Positions 1,287-8,061 of a DNA stretch of 39,600 nt are shown here, one piece after another; within the stretch, counting starts at the first letter, position 1, and every line of letters starts with the position of its first letter. The stretch lies in the IMG/VR virus record IMGVR_UViG_3300042261_000402, positions 1 to 39,600 of that record, one strand, 5' to 3'. A program made the translations under genes and the position numbers. Source of the stretch: a virus. The notes beneath the pieces are model-generated. The model saw nothing but the letters and a program-made list of their open reading frames with translations. It was not told the DNA's origin and did not search any database.

Positions 1287-2738
1287 TCATATTCTTGTCA
1301 AAGTTGCTCCGATATATTTTTTTTCTTTTGGCTTCATTAAACTTGCCATCATAAATGGCGTCTTTCCTTCAAAACACATCAAGTTCAAAGAGTCTGCAAA
1401 ATCAGGACTTTTCTTTTCTGCTGTATCTCCTTCTTTTTCTCCAGCATCTCTAATCCTAATCTTCATCGCACTTGTCAACTCCCACTTCTGATGGTTCAAC
1501 TGAAATACTAATTGCCTATCGTTCAATATACCTATCTTTCCTTCCTCAAATAAACTTCTTAACTGCCAATATGCTTGTGCCTTAATGTTCAAAAATCTTT
1601 CTTTGTCCCTGTCGCTGTCAGCACTCATTCCGCCTTTAAATGCAATCACATCGCACTTAATTCTTCCTTCAAACCTCAATTCCTGCAATCTCGAATAAAC
1701 CCCATTTCCAATTCCGTTTGCATCTACTTGTATTCTATTCACATTCCATTTATCAATCAAAGCCAAAACTTTACCCACCGTAGGCATTAAATCTTGCTTC
1801 TCCCAATGTTCAATTGCCAAAATCCTAAACCTATGAAATTCCTTGTCATAAAAACCCACTGTAAATACTGTGCTGTCGTTTCCCTGTTCCGCAACATCAA
1901 GTCCTGCCCAGATTTGTCCTTTAAAATCAAATTGCTGTTTTGTCGCCCTCTCAATCCAATCCCAATCAATCAACTGGTCTTCTGCCGTCTCTGGAAAATT
2001 AGCATCATATAAAACTTGAAACTCCCTAGGCGTCAGTTGCCCTCTCTGTTCCTCCAAAAACTCCTTAGTTATTCTTCCTTCTTCAAGAGCTTCCTGCCAA
2101 CCAATATGTATCTTCTCATAATTTGGGTCTATCCAATGTTGCCAAAAATGATTGTCTCTATGCCAAGGATTTCCAATCTCAATATAAACCGAGTCTGGAT
2201 TATCTCCCAACATTCTTGTAATCCTCGCTCTATAAACTTCATAAGCAATATCGCAAGTTTCATCAACAATCGTCAAGTCTGCTCCAAATCCCATAAGTTG
2301 TTCGCCGTTTCCTTCCGCACTCAAAGTTCTCATTTCAATTCCGTTCTTCCAAGTCATTCTTCTCCTGCTCACTTCCTTCTTAATCTTGTCCTGTCCTTTT
2401 TTGTCCACATCAAGCAAACTATAAATCAATGGACATTTCGTAACAAAATAAGCAATGTGGTTCCTAATAATTGTTGTCTTCTCGTTTGTCGGAGCAATAA
2501 TAGCAATCTTTTTGTTTTCGTGACTCCATATCCATAGCAAAATTCCAATACTCACAGAATAAGACTTCCCATATCTAGTCGGACAAACAATACTCACTCT
2601 CTTGTGCTCCCCATAAACTATCTCTTTCACAATTCTACACTGGTTCTTACTCAACTTAATCCCAAAAAAATAATAAGCCAATCTAAAAACTTTCTTCTCT
2701 TGAAACAACTTCCTTAAAACTTGTTCTTCACTCTCCAT
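1287..2738 (-). CDS. terL: Terminase large subunit (TerL)
   Basis: This is the ATP-driven DNA packaging motor with nuclease, 483 aa from the ATG at 2738 (a TTG five codons upstream is less likely). The ATPase domain has Walker A at residues 52-59 (CPTRYGKS), Walker B at 155-160 (LTIVDE) and the coupling motif IGNP at 188-191. The RNase H-like nuclease domain shows acidic residues in GLDVA (Asp281), VDANG (Asp339) and PDFADS (Asp446, Asp449). Length and motif order are typical of the family. It overlaps the TerS gene by 11 bases, as the last gene of the 6293-1287 operon. The identification is strong. Confidence 0.95.
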   Translation of the reverse strand: MESEEQVLRKLFQEKKVFRLAYYFFGIKLSKNQCRIVKEIVYGEHKRVSIVCPTRYGKSYSVSIGILLWIWSHENKKIAIIAPTNEKTTIIRNHIAYFVTKCPLIYSLLDVDKKGQDKIKKEVSRRRMTWKNGIEMRTLSAEGNGEQLMGFGADLTIVDETCDIAYEVYRARITRMLGDNPDSVYIEIGNPWHRDNHFWQHWIDPNYEKIHIGWQEALEEGRITKEFLEEQRGQLTPREFQVLYDANFPETAEDQLIDWDWIERATKQQFDFKGQIWAGLDVAEQGNDSTVFTVGFYDKEFHRFRILAIEHWEKQDLMPTVGKVLALIDKWNVNRIQVDANGIGNGVYSRLQELRFEGRIKCDVIAFKGGMSADSDRDKERFLNIKAQAYWQLRSLFEEGKIGILNDRQLVFQLNHQKWELTSAMKIRIRDAGEKEGDTAEKKSPDFADSLNLMCFEGKTPFMMASLMKPKEKKYIGATLTRI

Positions 2739-3234
2739 CAGGCTCTCCCTCAATCGGTTTATTCAATAACTCCGCCCAAGAGATGTTCTGATTTATTTGA
2801 GGATTGAAACTCTCAGGCAAAACAATCTTCCCTTGTAATTCAATAGCCTTCAATGCTCCGTTTTCACTCACTTCTGCCTTGCCTTGCTTCAAATCCTGTG
2901 CAAATGTTCCAATAATTGTGTTTGTCAATTTCATTGCCCTATCCTTCCATTCCTCAACCTTTTTGCCTAATTTCTGAGAAGTCTTATCCTCTAAAATCCT
3001 TCTTTTCTCCTGCCATCCCCCTTTAGTGCACCATAAACTCACAGTCCACCTTGAAACTCCCAGCTTTCGTGCAATCACACTAAAAGGCGTATAATGTAAA
3101 AACATCTCTTCAGCTAGTTCAACAATCTTCCTGTTCTTCCCTTTATGCTTTAAATTTTGTGTCTCTGTCTTAATCTCCTCTGCCCTTTCCTGAATTGGCT
3201 TCTCCAATAAATCCATAGGGTTCATATAACTCAT
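2728..3234 (-). CDS. terS: Terminase small subunit (TerS)-like
   Basis: 168 aa. A helix-turn-helix covers residues 48-70 (TPFSVIARKLGVSRWTVSLW), followed by a GGWQEKR segment typical of small terminases, a long helical region suited to oligomerisation and an acidic tail. TerS recognises the packaging site and regulates the large subunit. It sits directly before TerL with overlapping frames and overlaps the upstream gene by ATGA, so translation is coupled. The call relies on the HTH and the position; sequence conservation in this family is low. Confidence 0.8.
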   Translation of the reverse strand: MSYMNPMDLLEKPIQERAEEIKTETQNLKHKGKNRKIVELAEEMFLHYTPFSVIARKLGVSRWTVSLWCTKGGWQEKRRILEDKTSQKLGKKVEEWKDRAMKLTNTIIGTFAQDLKQGKAEVSENGALKAIELQGKIVLPESFNPQINQNISWAELLNKPIEGEPDGE

Positions 3235-3941
3235 ATTCTCAAAATCACCTCATTTGGTCTGTTTGGGTTGCTCACAACAATCCCTTCCCATTTATCCATT
3301 AACATCTGAAAAGCTTGTTTTTCTTTCTCTGTCCCATAAACATAATCCAATCCACCTTTAGCCTGATACTTCGCATTACAACTCAAATAGTCAAATCTTG
3401 CAACCTTCTTATATTTCTTTATATTCTGAATTGCATAATCATAATCTTCTTTTGTCGGCATCTGTTCGTCAAATCTCAATTCGTTCACTATAATTCCCAT
3501 TATCCAGCCGATAATAAAACACTTTCCGTTCACCTTACGTGCCATATAAAATGCGTTATTTACTGGATAAACTCCCCATAGATACGCTTTTTGTGCCTTA
3601 ATCGTGTCAAAACATAACTTGAACTCAAAAAGTGCCTCCTTTGGCTTTAAAACAATAACTCTTTTCTTATCAAAAAGACTCAATCTCGTAATCTCTGAAA
3701 TGTCATCGTCCATCATTATAATTTCCTCTCCCTGCTTAAAATAGTTCAAGATTGCGTTTCTTGCTCCGCCTATTCCTTTAGGCAATCCTGTAATCACTAC
3801 ATTCTTTATATCTGCTCTATACTGCTCTCTGTCTGCTTGGTTATGAAAAAAAACATACACGTTTTCTTCTCCCACTATGCTACAAGCTAAATCATAACTC
3901 TTCAATTCAGGTCTATTATAAGTGGGTATTGCTATTTTCAT
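3231..3941 (-). CDS. GT-A glycosyltransferase, TET-associated (TAGT)-like
   Basis: 236 aa. The start MKIAIPTYNR is the nucleotide-binding first strand of a GT-A fold. GIGGARNAIL (residues 56-65) and the metal-binding acidic triad MMDDDIS (Asp78-80) follow in the order I know from the TET-associated glycosyltransferases of phage DNA hypermodification. The predicted role is transfer of a sugar to a hydroxylated or otherwise modified base in viral DNA. It is in one operon with a radical SAM enzyme, two ParB-like proteins and the terminase, with 4-base overlaps to both neighbours. No TET/JBP dioxygenase or hydroxymethylase is visible in the window, so the acceptor is unknown. A role in virion-protein or host-surface glycosylation cannot be excluded. 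Confidence 0.75.
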   Translation of the reverse strand: MKIAIPTYNRPELKSYDLACSIVGEENVYVFFHNQADREQYRADIKNVVITGLPKGIGGARNAILNYFKQGEEIIMMDDDISEITRLSLFDKKRVIVLKPKEALFEFKLCFDTIKAQKAYLWGVYPVNNAFYMARKVNGKCFIIGWIMGIIVNELRFDEQMPTKEDYDYAIQNIKKYKKVARFDYLSCNAKYQAKGGLDYVYGTEKEKQAFQMLMDKWEGIVVSNPNRPNEVILRI

Positions 3942-5209
3942 TGTTTCTTTAATCTGTAAATTATGTCTTTATTTTTGTCTAGTCCCTGTGGTTCCAGTAA
4001 TCCATTAAAATATTTAAAAGGACTCTTCTCACTCTTGGGATTATTCCAAGCGTTTCTTGCATACTCTAAACAACTTTCATTTTTGTGTTTTCTTGCGTTC
4101 TGTGTATCTCCGAAATTATGTGGACAAGCACTCGGCACTTCTTCCTGCCATTTAAAATCTTCCTTAAATAATTCATAATATTCACTCCAACTGATTGTTT
4201 CTTTTTTGTTGTCCCTCATAAAACACAACAATTCGCATAATTGGCTCTTACAATAATTATTAAATGGCGGTCTCTGCGGTATTCCGCAACAACTTCCGTG
4301 ACAACTCACTTCTTTAAAGTCTGGGTCAGAAACATAAAGCTTCAATTCATACTTCTTACATAATTCCTGCAATTTCTCCATATAAGGTCGTTTCAGAGTC
4401 CTGTTCAGTCTCAAGTAACCTTTTGCTCTACTGTGCTTCTTATAAAACTTCCAAATGTCATATCCCAATACTCGACTCAATTCCTTATACCTCTCTTTCA
4501 GCGTAAAACTGGCTCTAATATCTAAACAAAAAAATTCCGTGCTAACACTTATTGCTCCTGCTTCTTTTGCGTTTCTGATTGTCTCCTCTAAATCCAAATC
4601 TGAAAGCCCAATAAAAAAAGGTCTCAATCTCAAAGTTGTTGCAATTCCCATATCGCTCAATTTCTTCATTGCCTTAAATCTTTCCTGTGGACTATCTACT
4701 GCCCTTTCAACTATTTTTGCCTTCTCTGCATTACTCGTAATTATGGAAAATTTAAAATGCCAATTTTCAGGGTGCTCTCTAAAAATACTCATATATCTTT
4801 CATCATTCACAAACCAAGTCCCTTTAGTAGAAAAACTTACAGGCAACTGCAACTCATTCATTTTCTTCAATATAGGCAAAGCTGTTCCCCTATTTCTTTC
4901 AAAATTGCAAAAAGGGTCTCCTAATGCTCCCCATTGAATTGCTTTCTTTGGCTTAATAAATCTCTCATAAAAAATCTTATCTGTGCCTGTCCCTTTTCCA
5001 TCAAGTAACTTCAAAACCTTATCCACGTCTACTGATTTTATAATCCCTTTAGCATAATCATCTTTACTCATTGCGTCACTATATCTCTGAAAATACGCAA
5101 AACAATACAAACAAGCAAATCCGCAACCTTTGTGTTGGTCGAAAGCCAAAGGCATACTACAATCCCTATACTCTGTGCTTATTCTAGGACTATTTCCATA
5201 AAACTTCAT
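3938..5209 (-). CDS. Radical SAM enzyme, SPL-like core with extra Cys cluster
   Basis: 423 aa. The [4Fe-4S]-binding motif is CGFACLYC (Cys29, Cys33, Cys36). A GALGDPF segment at 94-100 and SFSTKG at 125-130 follow in the order seen in spore-photoproduct-lyase-like radical SAM proteins. The C-terminal part adds a cysteine-rich region (Cys303, 307, 308, 320, 325, 329, 362, 380) that could hold an auxiliary iron-sulfur cluster or zinc. The enzyme would cleave S-adenosylmethionine to start radical chemistry. Placed between two ParB-like proteins and a TAGT-like glycosyltransferase, it is a candidate for a DNA base modification step. The substrate is not deducible from sequence. Confidence 0.85.
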   Translation of the reverse strand: MKFYGNSPRISTEYRDCSMPLAFDQHKGCGFACLYCFAYFQRYSDAMSKDDYAKGIIKSVDVDKVLKLLDGKGTGTDKIFYERFIKPKKAIQWGALGDPFCNFERNRGTALPILKKMNELQLPVSFSTKGTWFVNDERYMSIFREHPENWHFKFSIITSNAEKAKIVERAVDSPQERFKAMKKLSDMGIATTLRLRPFFIGLSDLDLEETIRNAKEAGAISVSTEFFCLDIRASFTLKERYKELSRVLGYDIWKFYKKHSRAKGYLRLNRTLKRPYMEKLQELCKKYELKLYVSDPDFKEVSCHGSCCGIPQRPPFNNYCKSQLCELLCFMRDNKKETISWSEYYELFKEDFKWQEEVPSACPHNFGDTQNARKHKNESCLEYARNAWNNPKSEKSPFKYFNGLLEPQGLDKNKDIIYRLKKQ

Positions 5210-5772
5210 ATCAGTTCCAGTAGCTTCTCCGTGTCAAGCTCTACTGTCCCCTCTCTTTTAAAATAATCCTTAACCATATTCTTGTCTTCTTCTGTCGCAA
5301 ACTTCAACACCAAACAATATCTAATTCCTGTTTGTTCTCCACTTTCTCCCTCATACTCCAAATCATCTATTGCACTTTCTGTTTCGCTCAATAAATTATC
5401 CACCTGATTTTGGTCAAACCCTGTAAATTCAATCAATTCATCATCAATCTCTCCCAATAATTCTCCTAATTTCTTTTCATCCCAGTCTCCTGAAATTTTA
5501 TTCAATGCGATATTCAGAGCCTTCTCTTTAATCAATTCCATATCCACAACAACAACTTCTATTTCGTCATCAGGGTTCATAGTTTCCATTAAAATTGTAA
5601 ATCTTTGGTTTCCGCCCACTATGTTCCCTGTTCGTTTGTTCCAAATTATAGGTTCAACATATCCAAACTTTTTCAAGCTGTTTCTCAATTTCTCTTTATC
5701 TTCCTGATAAATCATTCTAGGATTGTAAACTGCCAGTTTCAGTTCTCTTATCTTCTTTTTTTCTATTTGCAT
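5206..5772 (-). CDS. ParB/Srx-fold protein (copy 2 of a tandem pair)
   Basis: 188 aa. The N-terminal ParB/sulfiredoxin-like nucleotide-binding domain (residues 8-105) has YNPRMI, FGYVEPIIWN and the loop IVGGNQR, followed by KALNIALNKISGDWDEKKL, the segment typical of ParB domains that accompany phage and plasmid DNA-modification enzymes. The C-terminal 60 residues are acidic, then a small alpha/beta segment. It is clearly paralogous to the adjacent 5763-6293 gene, which it overlaps by 10 bases. In this loop Asn replaces the His of the neighbour (GGNQR versus GGHQR), so the two may differ in activity. Classical chromosome partitioning is unlikely because there is no ParA and no HTH. Confidence 0.8.
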   Translation of the reverse strand: MQIEKKKIRELKLAVYNPRMIYQEDKEKLRNSLKKFGYVEPIIWNKRTGNIVGGNQRFTILMETMNPDDEIEVVVVDMELIKEKALNIALNKISGDWDEKKLGELLGEIDDELIEFTGFDQNQVDNLLSETESAIDDLEYEGESGEQTGIRYCLVLKFATEEDKNMVKDYFKREGTVELDTEKLLELI

Positions 5773-6293
5773 ATTAACTCCTTCAACTTGTTTCCGCTTC
5801 CTTTAAAAAAATTCTTGGCTCTCATAAATTCTTCATAATCATCAAAATAAAAAGCCACAGTATTCTGTATCTCTGTCTCTTTAATCTCAAATGAGTCCTG
5901 TAATAAATTCTTCAATTCTCCTTCTGTAAATCCTGTGTCCTCCAATAATTCAGGACTCTCGTTTCCTATTTCCTTCAAAAGATTTGTTAACGCATATTCA
6001 TCCCAGCTTCCAGTTATCTTATTAAAAGCAATATTCAATGCTTTCTCCTCGCTGTCGCTCAAATTAACTACTACAACATCAACTTCTTTGTCTCCAAGAT
6101 ACATCTTTCTTAAAATCTTATATCTCTGATGTCCTCCAACAATATTTCCTGTTCTCTCGTTCCAAACAATAGGCTCAATATAACCATACTCCAGAATGCT
6201 GTCTTCTAACTTTCTTAATTCTTCCTCAGAAATAACTCTTGGATTATACTCTGTTGGTTTCAGTTTATCTAAAGCTACTTTTCTAATTTCCAT
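5763..6293 (-). CDS. ParB/Srx-fold protein (copy 1 of a tandem pair)
   Basis: 176 aa, first gene of the modification/terminase operon. The ParB-like domain spans residues 5-110 with YNPRVI, YGYIEPIVWN and IVGGHQR, then KALNIAFNKITGSWDEYAL and a short helical segment EDTGFTEGELKNLL. It shares domain layout with the next gene. A TATA element lies about 25 bases before the ATG. ParB-fold proteins bind or hydrolyse nucleotides. In viruses, stand-alone versions occur beside DNA methylases and base-modification genes, which fits the glycosyltransferase and radical SAM neighbours. The biochemical role here is unknown. Confidence 0.8.
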   Translation of the reverse strand: MEIRKVALDKLKPTEYNPRVISEEELRKLEDSILEYGYIEPIVWNERTGNIVGGHQRYKILRKMYLGDKEVDVVVVNLSDSEEKALNIAFNKITGSWDEYALTNLLKEIGNESPELLEDTGFTEGELKNLLQDSFEIKETEIQNTVAFYFDDYEEFMRAKNFFKGSGNKLKELICK

Positions 6294-6313: not shown

Positions 6314-6327
6314 CTTTTTAAATATTT
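6314..6327 (-). promoter_or_regulatory. Archaeal TATA element of the ParB-rSAM-GT-terminase operon
   Basis: The minus strand reads AAATATTTAAAAAG and is centred about 27 bases before the ATG at 6293. It overlaps the stop codon of the preceding 49-aa gene. All five downstream genes overlap, so this is probably the promoter for the whole operon to 1287. Confidence 0.55.
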
Positions 6328-6891: not shown

Positions 6892-7051
6892 TGTATGTTT
6901 TGCTTGGTCTTTTTTTTCTTGGTTTTCTCATTCCGTGAATTTTGTCGTGACAGGAGCGACATACTCTCCAATAGGGCGGAATGTGACTTCCTATTAGGCT
7001 GTGTTTAGTTAACTTACTAAACTTCTTGCACTCTCTGCATTTCCCCCACAT
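6878..7051 (-). CDS. HNH-like mini zinc protein, 57 aa
   Basis: MWGKCRECKKFSKLTKHS begins with CxxC, then H, then CRSCHDKIHG: the C-C...H...CxxCH..H spacing of a minimal HNH or treble-clef fold. The C-terminus is very basic (RKPRKKRPSK). It overlaps the nuclease gene by 14 bases and the next upstream gene by 35. It may be a DNA-binding partner of the nuclease. The catalytic Asn is not obvious, so activity is uncertain. Confidence 0.6.
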   Translation of the reverse strand: MWGKCRECKKFSKLTKHSLIGSHIPPYWRVCRSCHDKIHGMRKPRKKRPSKTYNGYH

Positions 7052-7175
7052 TTTCTACACCATATCTTTTTATTGAGCCATCTTTCTGCGAATTAACATA
7101 TCCACATCTCTTGCAAACTTTTCCTTCTCTTGTTTGAATATACTGAGTGCTGTTACAATGCGGACATTTTTTCAT
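7017..7175 (-). CDS. Zinc ribbon mini protein, 52 aa
   Basis: MKKCPHCNSTQYIQTREGKV followed by CKRCGYVNSQ: a classic CPxC...CxxCG ribbon like those of archaeal transcription factors. A good ribosome binding site (GGAGG, 6 bases before the ATG) supports this start. The C-terminal 20 residues overlap the next gene in another frame. It may be a small transcription or DNA-binding factor. Confidence 0.6.
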   Translation of the reverse strand: MKKCPHCNSTQYIQTREGKVCKRCGYVNSQKDGSIKRYGVENVGEMQRVQEV

Positions 7176-7252
7176 CTTTTCCTCCGAGTTGTTGTTTAAG
7201 TTCTTTTAAGTCTTTTCTTAACCAACCTGCAAAATCACAATAAGTGGGTTAG

Positions 7253-7399
7253 TCATTTTTCATCCTTAACGCATTTAATTTCAACCTTGACTGCTCCGCC
7301 CTCAATAATCTGCTTCGCTTTTTCTTTTATGGCTCTCTCTGCTAGAGAGTAATCATTCGGTGCATAATATTCAAACTCTGCTAATATTTTAAATTTCAT
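7253..7399 (-). CDS. Hypothetical protein, 48 aa
   Basis: MKFKILAEFEYYAPNDYSLA followed by a helical segment and a short strand (GGAVKVEIKCVKDEK), plausibly a small alpha/beta fold. It overlaps the preceding 101-aa gene by 11 bases. Not recognised. The 77 bases between this stop and the next start (7176-7252) hold no ORF with a start codon; see findings. Confidence 0.5.
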   Translation of the reverse strand: MKFKILAEFEYYAPNDYSLAERAIKEKAKQIIEGGAVKVEIKCVKDEK

Positions 7400-7694
7400 T
7401 GTTCGTTAATCTATTTATTTGATTGAATGTCCTTTCTCGGCTTTGTCTCTTCATCAATATCTCAGGATTAGTGGGTTTAAATCTTTTCTCTTTATTCTGA
7501 ATTTGAGCCCTACATCTCTTGACAGTTTCGAAAGCTGGAATTTTCTTAAAATCTTCAAATGGAATATAAATATTTGTAAATCTTCTCATAACCAAATAAG
7601 TAAGCCATTTATCGTCATTTCTACATCTTTCATCGGTCTCCAGTAAGTGTTCAACTATTTTTCTTACGCTCTTGATTTCTTGTTCTGTGTTCAT
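7389..7694 (-). CDS. Phage-type hypothetical protein, 101 aa
   Basis: The sequence EHLLETDERCRNDDKWLTYL, then IPFEDFKKIPAFETVKRCRA and a basic tail, is of a type I know from many bacterial phage early regions (conserved, function unknown). It is mostly helical and very basic at the C-terminus, which suggests nucleic-acid binding. It overlaps its upstream neighbour by ATGA. Confidence 0.6.
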   Translation of the reverse strand: MNTEQEIKSVRKIVEHLLETDERCRNDDKWLTYLVMRRFTNIYIPFEDFKKIPAFETVKRCRAQIQNKEKRFKPTNPEILMKRQSRERTFNQINRLTNNEI

Positions 7695-7834
7695 TTTTCT
7701 CCTCGCTTATAGAGGGACGGAGTCTTAGAAAACCCCTGCCTCAAATGGTTAAAAGAGGTATGGTTTGGGTGATGACAAACCACATCAAAACCTGCTAAAT
7801 CCTTGCGAGTTAGCTTACCCTCTATAAGTATCAT
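7691..7834 (-). CDS. Tiny protein, 47 aa
   Basis: MILIEGKLTRKDLAGFDVVC, then HHPNHTSFNHLRQGFSKTP. His-rich and basic. It overlaps both neighbours by ATGA, which is the main support that it is a real gene. Not recognised. Confidence 0.5.
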   Translation of the reverse strand: MILIEGKLTRKDLAGFDVVCHHPNHTSFNHLRQGFSKTPSLYKRGEK

Positions 7835-8061
7835 CTAAACTCCTTGTAATGATATTTCTTAGAACATCCTTTACAAATTACCTTTAAATTTCTAAGTGAA
7901 TGCAATATCTCAGGTGCTAAAAGTCTTCCGTCACCTCTCTGTCTTGCTAAATGATGCACCAAAAGTTCTTTCGCATCAAAATGTATCCTGCATTCTTCGC
8001 ATTGAAAATCTACAAATTCCTTCAATAACCTTTTTTGTTTTTCTGTCAAATATGCTCTCAT
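7831..8061 (-). CDS. HNH endonuclease-like protein, 76 aa
   Basis: The metal-binding pattern is Cys21-x2-Cys24, His36-His37, Asn58 and Cys63-x2-Cys66 with a following His71, i.e. a compact HNH/treble-clef nuclease domain with little else. It overlaps both neighbours. Small HNH proteins in viruses act as DNA nickases or packaging-associated nucleases; which applies here is unknown. Confidence 0.7.
   Translation of the reverse strand: MRAYLTEKQKRLLKEFVDFQCEECRIHFDAKELLVHHLARQRGDGRLLAPEILHSLRNLKVICKGCSKKYHYKEFR

Follow-up and report, generated by a model that had tools for sequence, protein, structure and literature searches.

The window considered here is the whole of one 39.6-kb IMG/VR virus record (IMGVR_UViG_3300042261_000402), which may be incomplete. 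Six minus-strand genes run head to tail from position 6293 to position 1287, each overlapping the next. They encode two ParB proteins, a radical SAM enzyme, a TAGT-family glycosyltransferase and the two terminase subunits. On balance, the operon looks like a viral DNA-hypermodification cassette. In it, TET appears to be replaced by a radical SAM enzyme that has a spore photoproduct lyase (SPL) fold and probably makes the acceptor for glycosylation by TAGT. Its features are listed below; L numbers denote comparison loci.

6315..6327, minus strand: archaeal-type TATA element AAATATTTAAAAA, identified by sequence and a position test; its TTTAAA starts 29 bases 5' of the ParB1 ATG.
5763..6293, minus strand: ParB1, a stand-alone ParB/Srx-fold protein of 176 aa, whose ParB N-terminal domain passes the Pfam cut-off (ParB_N 5e-8; phrog_620/498).
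5206..5772, minus strand: ParB2, a ParB1 paralogue of 188 aa with the same domain, below the Pfam cut-off (ParB_N 8e-4) but matching phrog_620 at 3e-39.
3938..5209, minus strand: SPL-fold radical SAM enzyme, 423 aa, founding member of a viral family (Radical_SAM 6e-10; relatives; AlphaFold).
5102..5125, minus strand: codons of its CxxxCxYC cluster motif (C29, C33, C36), kept in a 36-sequence alignment.
3231..3941, minus strand: TAGT-family GT-A glycosyltransferase, 236 aa (PF20691 1.4e-17, 64.8 bits against a curated cut-off of 27.5; phrog_842 4e-18; AlphaFold).
3702..3710, minus strand: DDD motif of TAGT (residues 78-80), aligned with phage and viral TAGTs.
2728..3234, minus strand: terminase small subunit (TerS), 168 aa, identified by its position 5' of TerL and by its counterpart preceding TerL in contig L055 (E 2e-13); profile matches are weak.
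1287..2753, minus strand: terminase large subunit (TerL), 488 aa (PF03237/PF17289; phrog_2 7e-29; 57% identical to TerL of L055).

ParB1 and ParB2 share 10 bases and TerS and TerL share 26, while the three overlaps between them (ParB2/radical SAM, radical SAM/TAGT and TAGT/TerS) are of 4 bases each. A first-pass annotation, made from the sequence alone, had proposed a single transcription unit because five of the six genes overlap their upstream neighbour and a TATA element precedes the first. Its coordinates proved exact, and the element is backed by a position test. TTTAWA-type boxes occur 12 times at -33..-25 from the start codon across 48 genes, against 1.6 expected from shuffles (maximum 7), and eight of the 12 sit exactly at -29. 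Such clustering matches leaderless archaeal promoters and makes an archaeal host likely for this virus. Elsewhere in the window (12517-39600), boxes at -29 precede several operon starts, for instance 38803, 37032, 31324, 17515 and 13192, and help to assign the host. The gene identities proposed at first pass also hold: Pfam and PHROGs agree on the two ParB proteins, the radical SAM enzyme, the TAGT-like protein with its DDD motif and TerL, and TerS follows from its position and its homologue.

The radical SAM enzyme belongs to the superfamily PF04055, with a CxxxCxxC cluster within a radical SAM barrel. A full-length homologue, 37% identical, was found in a TAGT locus (L071), where it adjoins three TAGT-type genes and TerL. 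An alignment of these two proteins retrieved 43 IMG/VR loci, and an alignment of 36 sequences retrieved 374 IMG/VR relatives. Alignments were required, as scans of IMG/VR with a single protein query (radical SAM enzyme or TAGT) gave no matches. Among GenBank phages no family member was found at the sensitivity used, the sole match being a short radical SAM protein of another type. In the 36-sequence alignment, invariant positions include the RxR within LRLRP, a Cys-Cys pair (307-308) and the final cysteine of the cluster, whose first two cysteines are nearly invariant.

The AlphaFold model of the enzyme, built with 36 sequences, has a pLDDT of 91.4. The first-pass annotation had suggested a comparison with SPL-like enzymes, and in a search of the PDB with Foldseek and VIA-align SPL ranks first by a clear margin, with Z 20.2 across 258 residues; the next family reaches 15.8. 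Profile-profile comparison aligns the cores and the cluster motif of the two families, at a remote level (probability 83%, E 8.6e-6). A further profile comparison (A8 against A3) was disregarded as circular, since both contain the window protein. The Pfam model of SPL (PF20903) gives no match to the window enzyme at E 1, and sequence searches of the PDB gave no useful match. The two enzymes share the radical SAM core and fold. Unlike SPL, which serves in spore repair, the window enzyme is part of a viral operon, lacks the hydrogen-donor cysteine and carries an extra C-terminal part bearing the invariant CC pair. SPL acts on thymine in DNA and is thymine-specific. The fold together with the missing donor cysteine makes a DNA base the likely substrate and SPL-type repair unlikely.

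The set of two ParB/Srx proteins, an SPL-fold radical SAM enzyme and TAGT is conserved across many divergent viruses. The first-pass proposal depended on the joint occurrence of TAGT, radical SAM and ParB genes, which was looked for in 82 non-redundant loci and is present on a large scale. Genes were counted when they lay no more than 5 kb from the radical SAM gene. The 35 non-redundant loci from the first scan have ParB in 22, TAGT in 18 and a SPASM-domain radical SAM protein in 12, with at least one of these in 34. Some profile seeds were drawn from those loci, so the models were frozen and then run on 47 new ones. These 47, outside the model tuning, gave ParB in 40, TAGT in 23, a kinase in 8, TerL in 23 and TET in none. 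In the pooled 82 loci the counts are 62 for ParB, 41 for TAGT, 14 each for the P-loop nucleotide kinase and the SPASM radical SAM protein, and 1 for TET.

At least one partner gene (ParB, TAGT, kinase or SPASM radical SAM) is found in 77 of the 82 loci and touches the radical SAM gene in 61. Farther away than 5 kb, none of these partners appears across 134 kb of the first-set contigs. Where TerL is present, the median distance to its start, downstream of the radical SAM gene, is 564 bases. In a control set of 11 loci with short PA0069-type phage radical SAM proteins, ParB occurs three times and TAGT never. The order ParB-radical SAM-TAGT is found in the window, L207 and L208; other loci show different orders. 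No locus among the 82 has both TAGT and the kinase (Fisher p 3e-5, without correction for relatedness), a pattern that would suit alternative second steps. Where TAGT is missing, other glycosyltransferases sometimes adjoin the radical SAM gene, as in L151.

An indication of what the radical SAM enzyme may do comes from viruses that lack it, in which the position between ParB and TAGT is mostly either taken by TET/JBP or empty. A TBLASTN search with TAGT led to mycobacteriophages whose genomes start with ParB, a 'queuine tRNA-ribosyltransferase', TAGT, a PIG-L-type deacetylase, an 'adenylate kinase' and terminase. The second gene is homologous to the 'oxidoreductase' of Lilmac1015 and to Tet_JBP proteins; its annotation is thus probably wrong, and the order is ParB-TET-TAGT. 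Gene 2 of Mycobacterium phage Indlovu (L002:809-1687) is one such TET/JBP homologue that was probably misnamed. The 'adenylate kinase' is the Pfam family Ploopntkinase3 (PF18751). TET/JBP lies between ParB and TAGT in many IMG/VR contigs as well, and most of 43 IMG/VR TAGT loci show the order ParB-TET-TAGT.

In agreement with the first-pass annotation, neither TET/JBP nor a thymidylate synthase/hydroxymethylase was found in the 39.6-kb window; C5-cytosine methylases were not found in it either. Among the radical-SAM-bearing records searched, TET is present in two sister contigs only, a C5-methylase exceeds its cut-off in one, and thymidylate synthase/hydroxymethylase is found in none. Both kinds of first-step enzyme have TAGT and the PF18751 kinase as later partners.

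The same exchange is visible in a tree of 104 TAGTs, on which partner labels switch 10 times, whereas shuffled labels give 40.8. The window TAGT and other TAGTs with a radical SAM partner group together inside a clade (support 100/96) that holds 26 TAGTs partnered by TET, 9 by the radical SAM enzyme and 3 by neither. The majority of partnerless TAGTs form a separate clade. Within the two partner-bearing clades, TET accompanies 2 of the 15 TAGTs with a radical SAM gene and 27 of the 30 without (Fisher p 7e-7). These patterns are suggestive of a radical SAM enzyme that replaces TET/JBP in the cassette.

If so, the ParB proteins would recruit the enzymes to DNA, and the radical SAM enzyme would take a hydrogen from a DNA base, most likely from the C5-methyl of thymine. 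Thymine is favoured because of the SPL fold and the near-absence of C5-cytosine methylases. The abstraction would yield the functional group, probably a hydroxymethyl-like nucleophile, whose formation by TET/JBP in related cassettes depends on oxygen. To this group TAGT would then add a sugar. The DNA may be modified before or at packaging, which would protect the genome against host nucleases. Overall, the cassette would work like the base J-like TET-TAGT pathway, except that its first step would be independent of oxygen. A radical SAM precedent for the anaerobic hydroxylation of an aromatic methyl group is BciD of bacteriochlorophyll synthesis.

The base J pathway of kinetoplastids consists of JBP, which needs oxygen, and a glucosyltransferase. 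Its logic, thymine oxidation followed by TAGT-related glycosylation, would be shared by the window cassette, which has no oxygenase. To our knowledge, the sources known for DNA-base oxidation ahead of glycosylation are oxygen-dependent TET/JBP enzymes and pools of hydroxymethylated nucleotides. It is possible, at a tentative level, that the cassette represents a widespread oxygen-independent viral route, in which SPL-fold radical SAM enzymes activate the C5-methyl of thymine in DNA in place of TET/JBP and TAGT or, in other viruses, a P-loop kinase then acts on the new group. Base J-like DNA would then be made without oxygen in archaeal and other viruses. Anaerobic viruses would gain a way to glycosylated DNA, and the reaction would extend radical SAM chemistry to a novel type of DNA modification. 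This large, conserved family was not found in sequenced phage isolates; it offers clear candidates for expression, and the chemistry is directly testable.

Cassettes with TAGT, ParB and TET are of known kinds, and the new element would be a radical SAM family in the TET position. In the literature covered, which did not include the TET/JBP prediction of Iyer 2013, no description of an SPL-fold radical SAM enzyme in that position was found. In the TET/JBP-TAGT operons of mycobacteriophages Indlovu and Acadian and Arthrobacter phage Lilmac1015, ParB, a first-step enzyme and TAGT are likewise combined and the P-loop nucleotide kinase is a further partner; those of the mycobacteriophages also precede terminase. 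They differ from the window in having a TET/JBP oxygenase, whereas the window has an SPL-fold radical SAM enzyme, two ParB genes and no deacetylase.

Several observations weigh against a radical SAM enzyme that stands in for TET. Two loci, L153 and L156, carry both enzymes, so the exchange is not absolute. The TAGT tree offers few independent contrasts (2-4 pairs), too few for a significant sign test, which leaves the exchange pattern suggestive and not proof. TAGT is missing from half of the radical SAM loci, and IMG/VR records are fragments. TAGT and the kinase do share TET loci, unlike radical SAM loci, which is a difference between the systems. The position of the SPL hydrogen-donor cysteine, taken here to be C140 in the numbering of the Geobacillus enzyme, is Ala95 in the window enzyme and Gly in most relatives, so SPL chemistry itself is not conserved; several of the fetched SPLs likewise lack this cysteine. 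Finally, a second scan found 326 TAGT relatives, and the best 80 of the 326 are mostly ParB-TAGT-TerL without TET. The fetched examples among these hundreds have ParB-TAGT-Ter with neither TET nor a window-type radical SAM gene nearby, so some TAGTs need neither partner.

The main rival explanation builds on this last point. The radical SAM enzyme may act after or beside TAGT and remodel the sugar or the already modified base; TAGT would then take either an unmodified base or an acceptor made by the host. In favour of this explanation, an acceptor-making enzyme is missing from most ParB-TAGT-Ter loci. It also accommodates the coexistence of both enzymes in L153/L156 and the second, SPASM-type radical SAM proteins that adjoin TAGT, and sugar-modifying enzymes do exist among known radical SAM enzymes. 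However, in half of the radical SAM loci there is no TAGT whose product could be tailored, and some pair with a kinase instead. The radical-SAM-partnered TAGTs cluster with the TET-partnered ones, outside the main partnerless clade, and the closest fold is that of an enzyme acting on thymine in DNA. Later tailoring is therefore judged unlikely, though it is the rival to be taken most seriously.

Alternatively, the enzyme could be an SPL-like DNA repair or host-takeover protein that merely travels with modification genes. The SPL fold fits this, as does a distant similarity to the PA0069 and Rv2578c radical SAM proteins of cellular genomes. Such a role is nevertheless improbable: the C140 equivalent is missing, tight overlap with ParB, TAGT or kinase genes recurs, and the control PA0069-type loci have no TAGT.

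The glycosyltransferase, for its part, could act on a virion protein (capsid or terminase) or on a lipid. Its AlphaFold model is a confident GT-A fold (pLDDT 93.9), and its PDB matches are mostly protein, polysaccharide and teichoic-acid glycosyltransferases, among which acceptors are not separated. The first-pass annotation had treated a structural match of the 236-aa protein to a protein- or lipid-glycosyltransferase as a refutation, but with a generic GT-A fold and matches blind to the acceptor, such a match is uninformative. Terminase adjacency would also suit a virion target. Against this, TAGT is a family tied to TET/JBP DNA oxidation, and phrog_842 is a beta-glucosyl-HMC-alpha-glucosyltransferase. 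The gene stands among DNA-modification genes, and in the nearest virus its slot is held by a DNA methyltransferase. A protein or lipid acceptor is thus very improbable, and sugar transfer to a hydroxymethylated DNA base is the predicted activity.

Least probable is a radical SAM enzyme that makes a non-hydroxyl handle before TAGT (for example, C-C bonded or methyl-derived) or whose target is not thymine but another base. This would fit L186, where an N6/N4 methyltransferase separates the ParB and radical SAM genes, as well as L158, with a B12-type radical SAM protein close by, and L171, with another radical SAM protein there. Yet SPL is specific for thymine, and C5-cytosine methylases are nearly absent from radical-SAM-bearing records.

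Of the DNA-modification reading given at first pass, the module itself, the absence of TET and the radical SAM enzyme in its place have stood, with the acceptor-making role still conditional. Two parts have not. An archaeal-virus variant had been suggested, yet many viruses carry the family, and archaeal promoters are seen in few of the other radical SAM loci. Modification had also been tied to packaging. The nearest virus, contig L055, has a fusion of a ParB domain and an N6/N4 DNA methyltransferase (a type found in phrog_498) immediately in the slot 5' of TerS-TerL. It shares the slot and the ParB domain with the window but carries out simple methylation, in contrast to a radical SAM enzyme plus a glycosyltransferase. 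The slot before terminase thus hosts differing DNA-modification cassettes that have ParB in common. Because terminase adjacency is common to ParB-methyltransferase and ParB-TET-TAGT cassettes, it marks a conserved genomic slot and is not evidence of a packaging mechanism. Coupling of the cassette to packaging is visible as conserved gene order only. The cassettes point to a general modification slot 5' of viral terminase genes.

Other arrangements were seen around these genes. A ParB-TAGT(-TAGT)-TerS-TerL module is very common in IMG/VR and bacterial genome contigs (L064-L147), including prophage-like contigs of Phascolarctobacterium, Treponema, Victivallaceae and Bacteroides; neither TET nor a radical SAM gene lies close to it. 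In L186, an N6/N4 DNA methyltransferase gene (6943-7971) separates ParB from the radical SAM gene, and TAGT and terminase follow. TAGT is also directly adjoined by other, SPASM-domain radical SAM proteins (L071:5980-6891, L131:6121-6999 and L153:9957-11000); L131 has the order ParB-SPASM radical SAM-TAGT without a window-type enzyme. Extra radical SAM proteins lie near the window-type gene at L158:9680-10960, where a B12-binding domain is present, and at L171:5404-6705.

By sequence, the nearest named families are the PA0069 and Rv2578c radical SAM proteins (NCBIfam), found in cellular genomes; the window enzyme reaches 60 of 360 bits, far under their curated cut-offs. When genomes were scanned with a radical SAM alignment that included short phage members, no matches were obtained, so that cellular genomes were not properly covered. 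The short PA0069-like phage proteins were set aside as a different family (about 25% identity to the window enzyme, TAGT in none of their loci). In Bacteroides, Parabacteroides and Alistipes phages (L057-L059), such a short gene follows that of a single-strand-binding protein, near an ASCH-domain gene. A separate cassette without TAGT combines ParB, a small protein and a short PA0069-like radical SAM protein (L006:4801-6741, L051:5761-7756 and L053:6956-8817). The LELFSGHG methyltransferase-like motif of the small protein is clear in L051, where this cassette sits immediately 5' of terminase.

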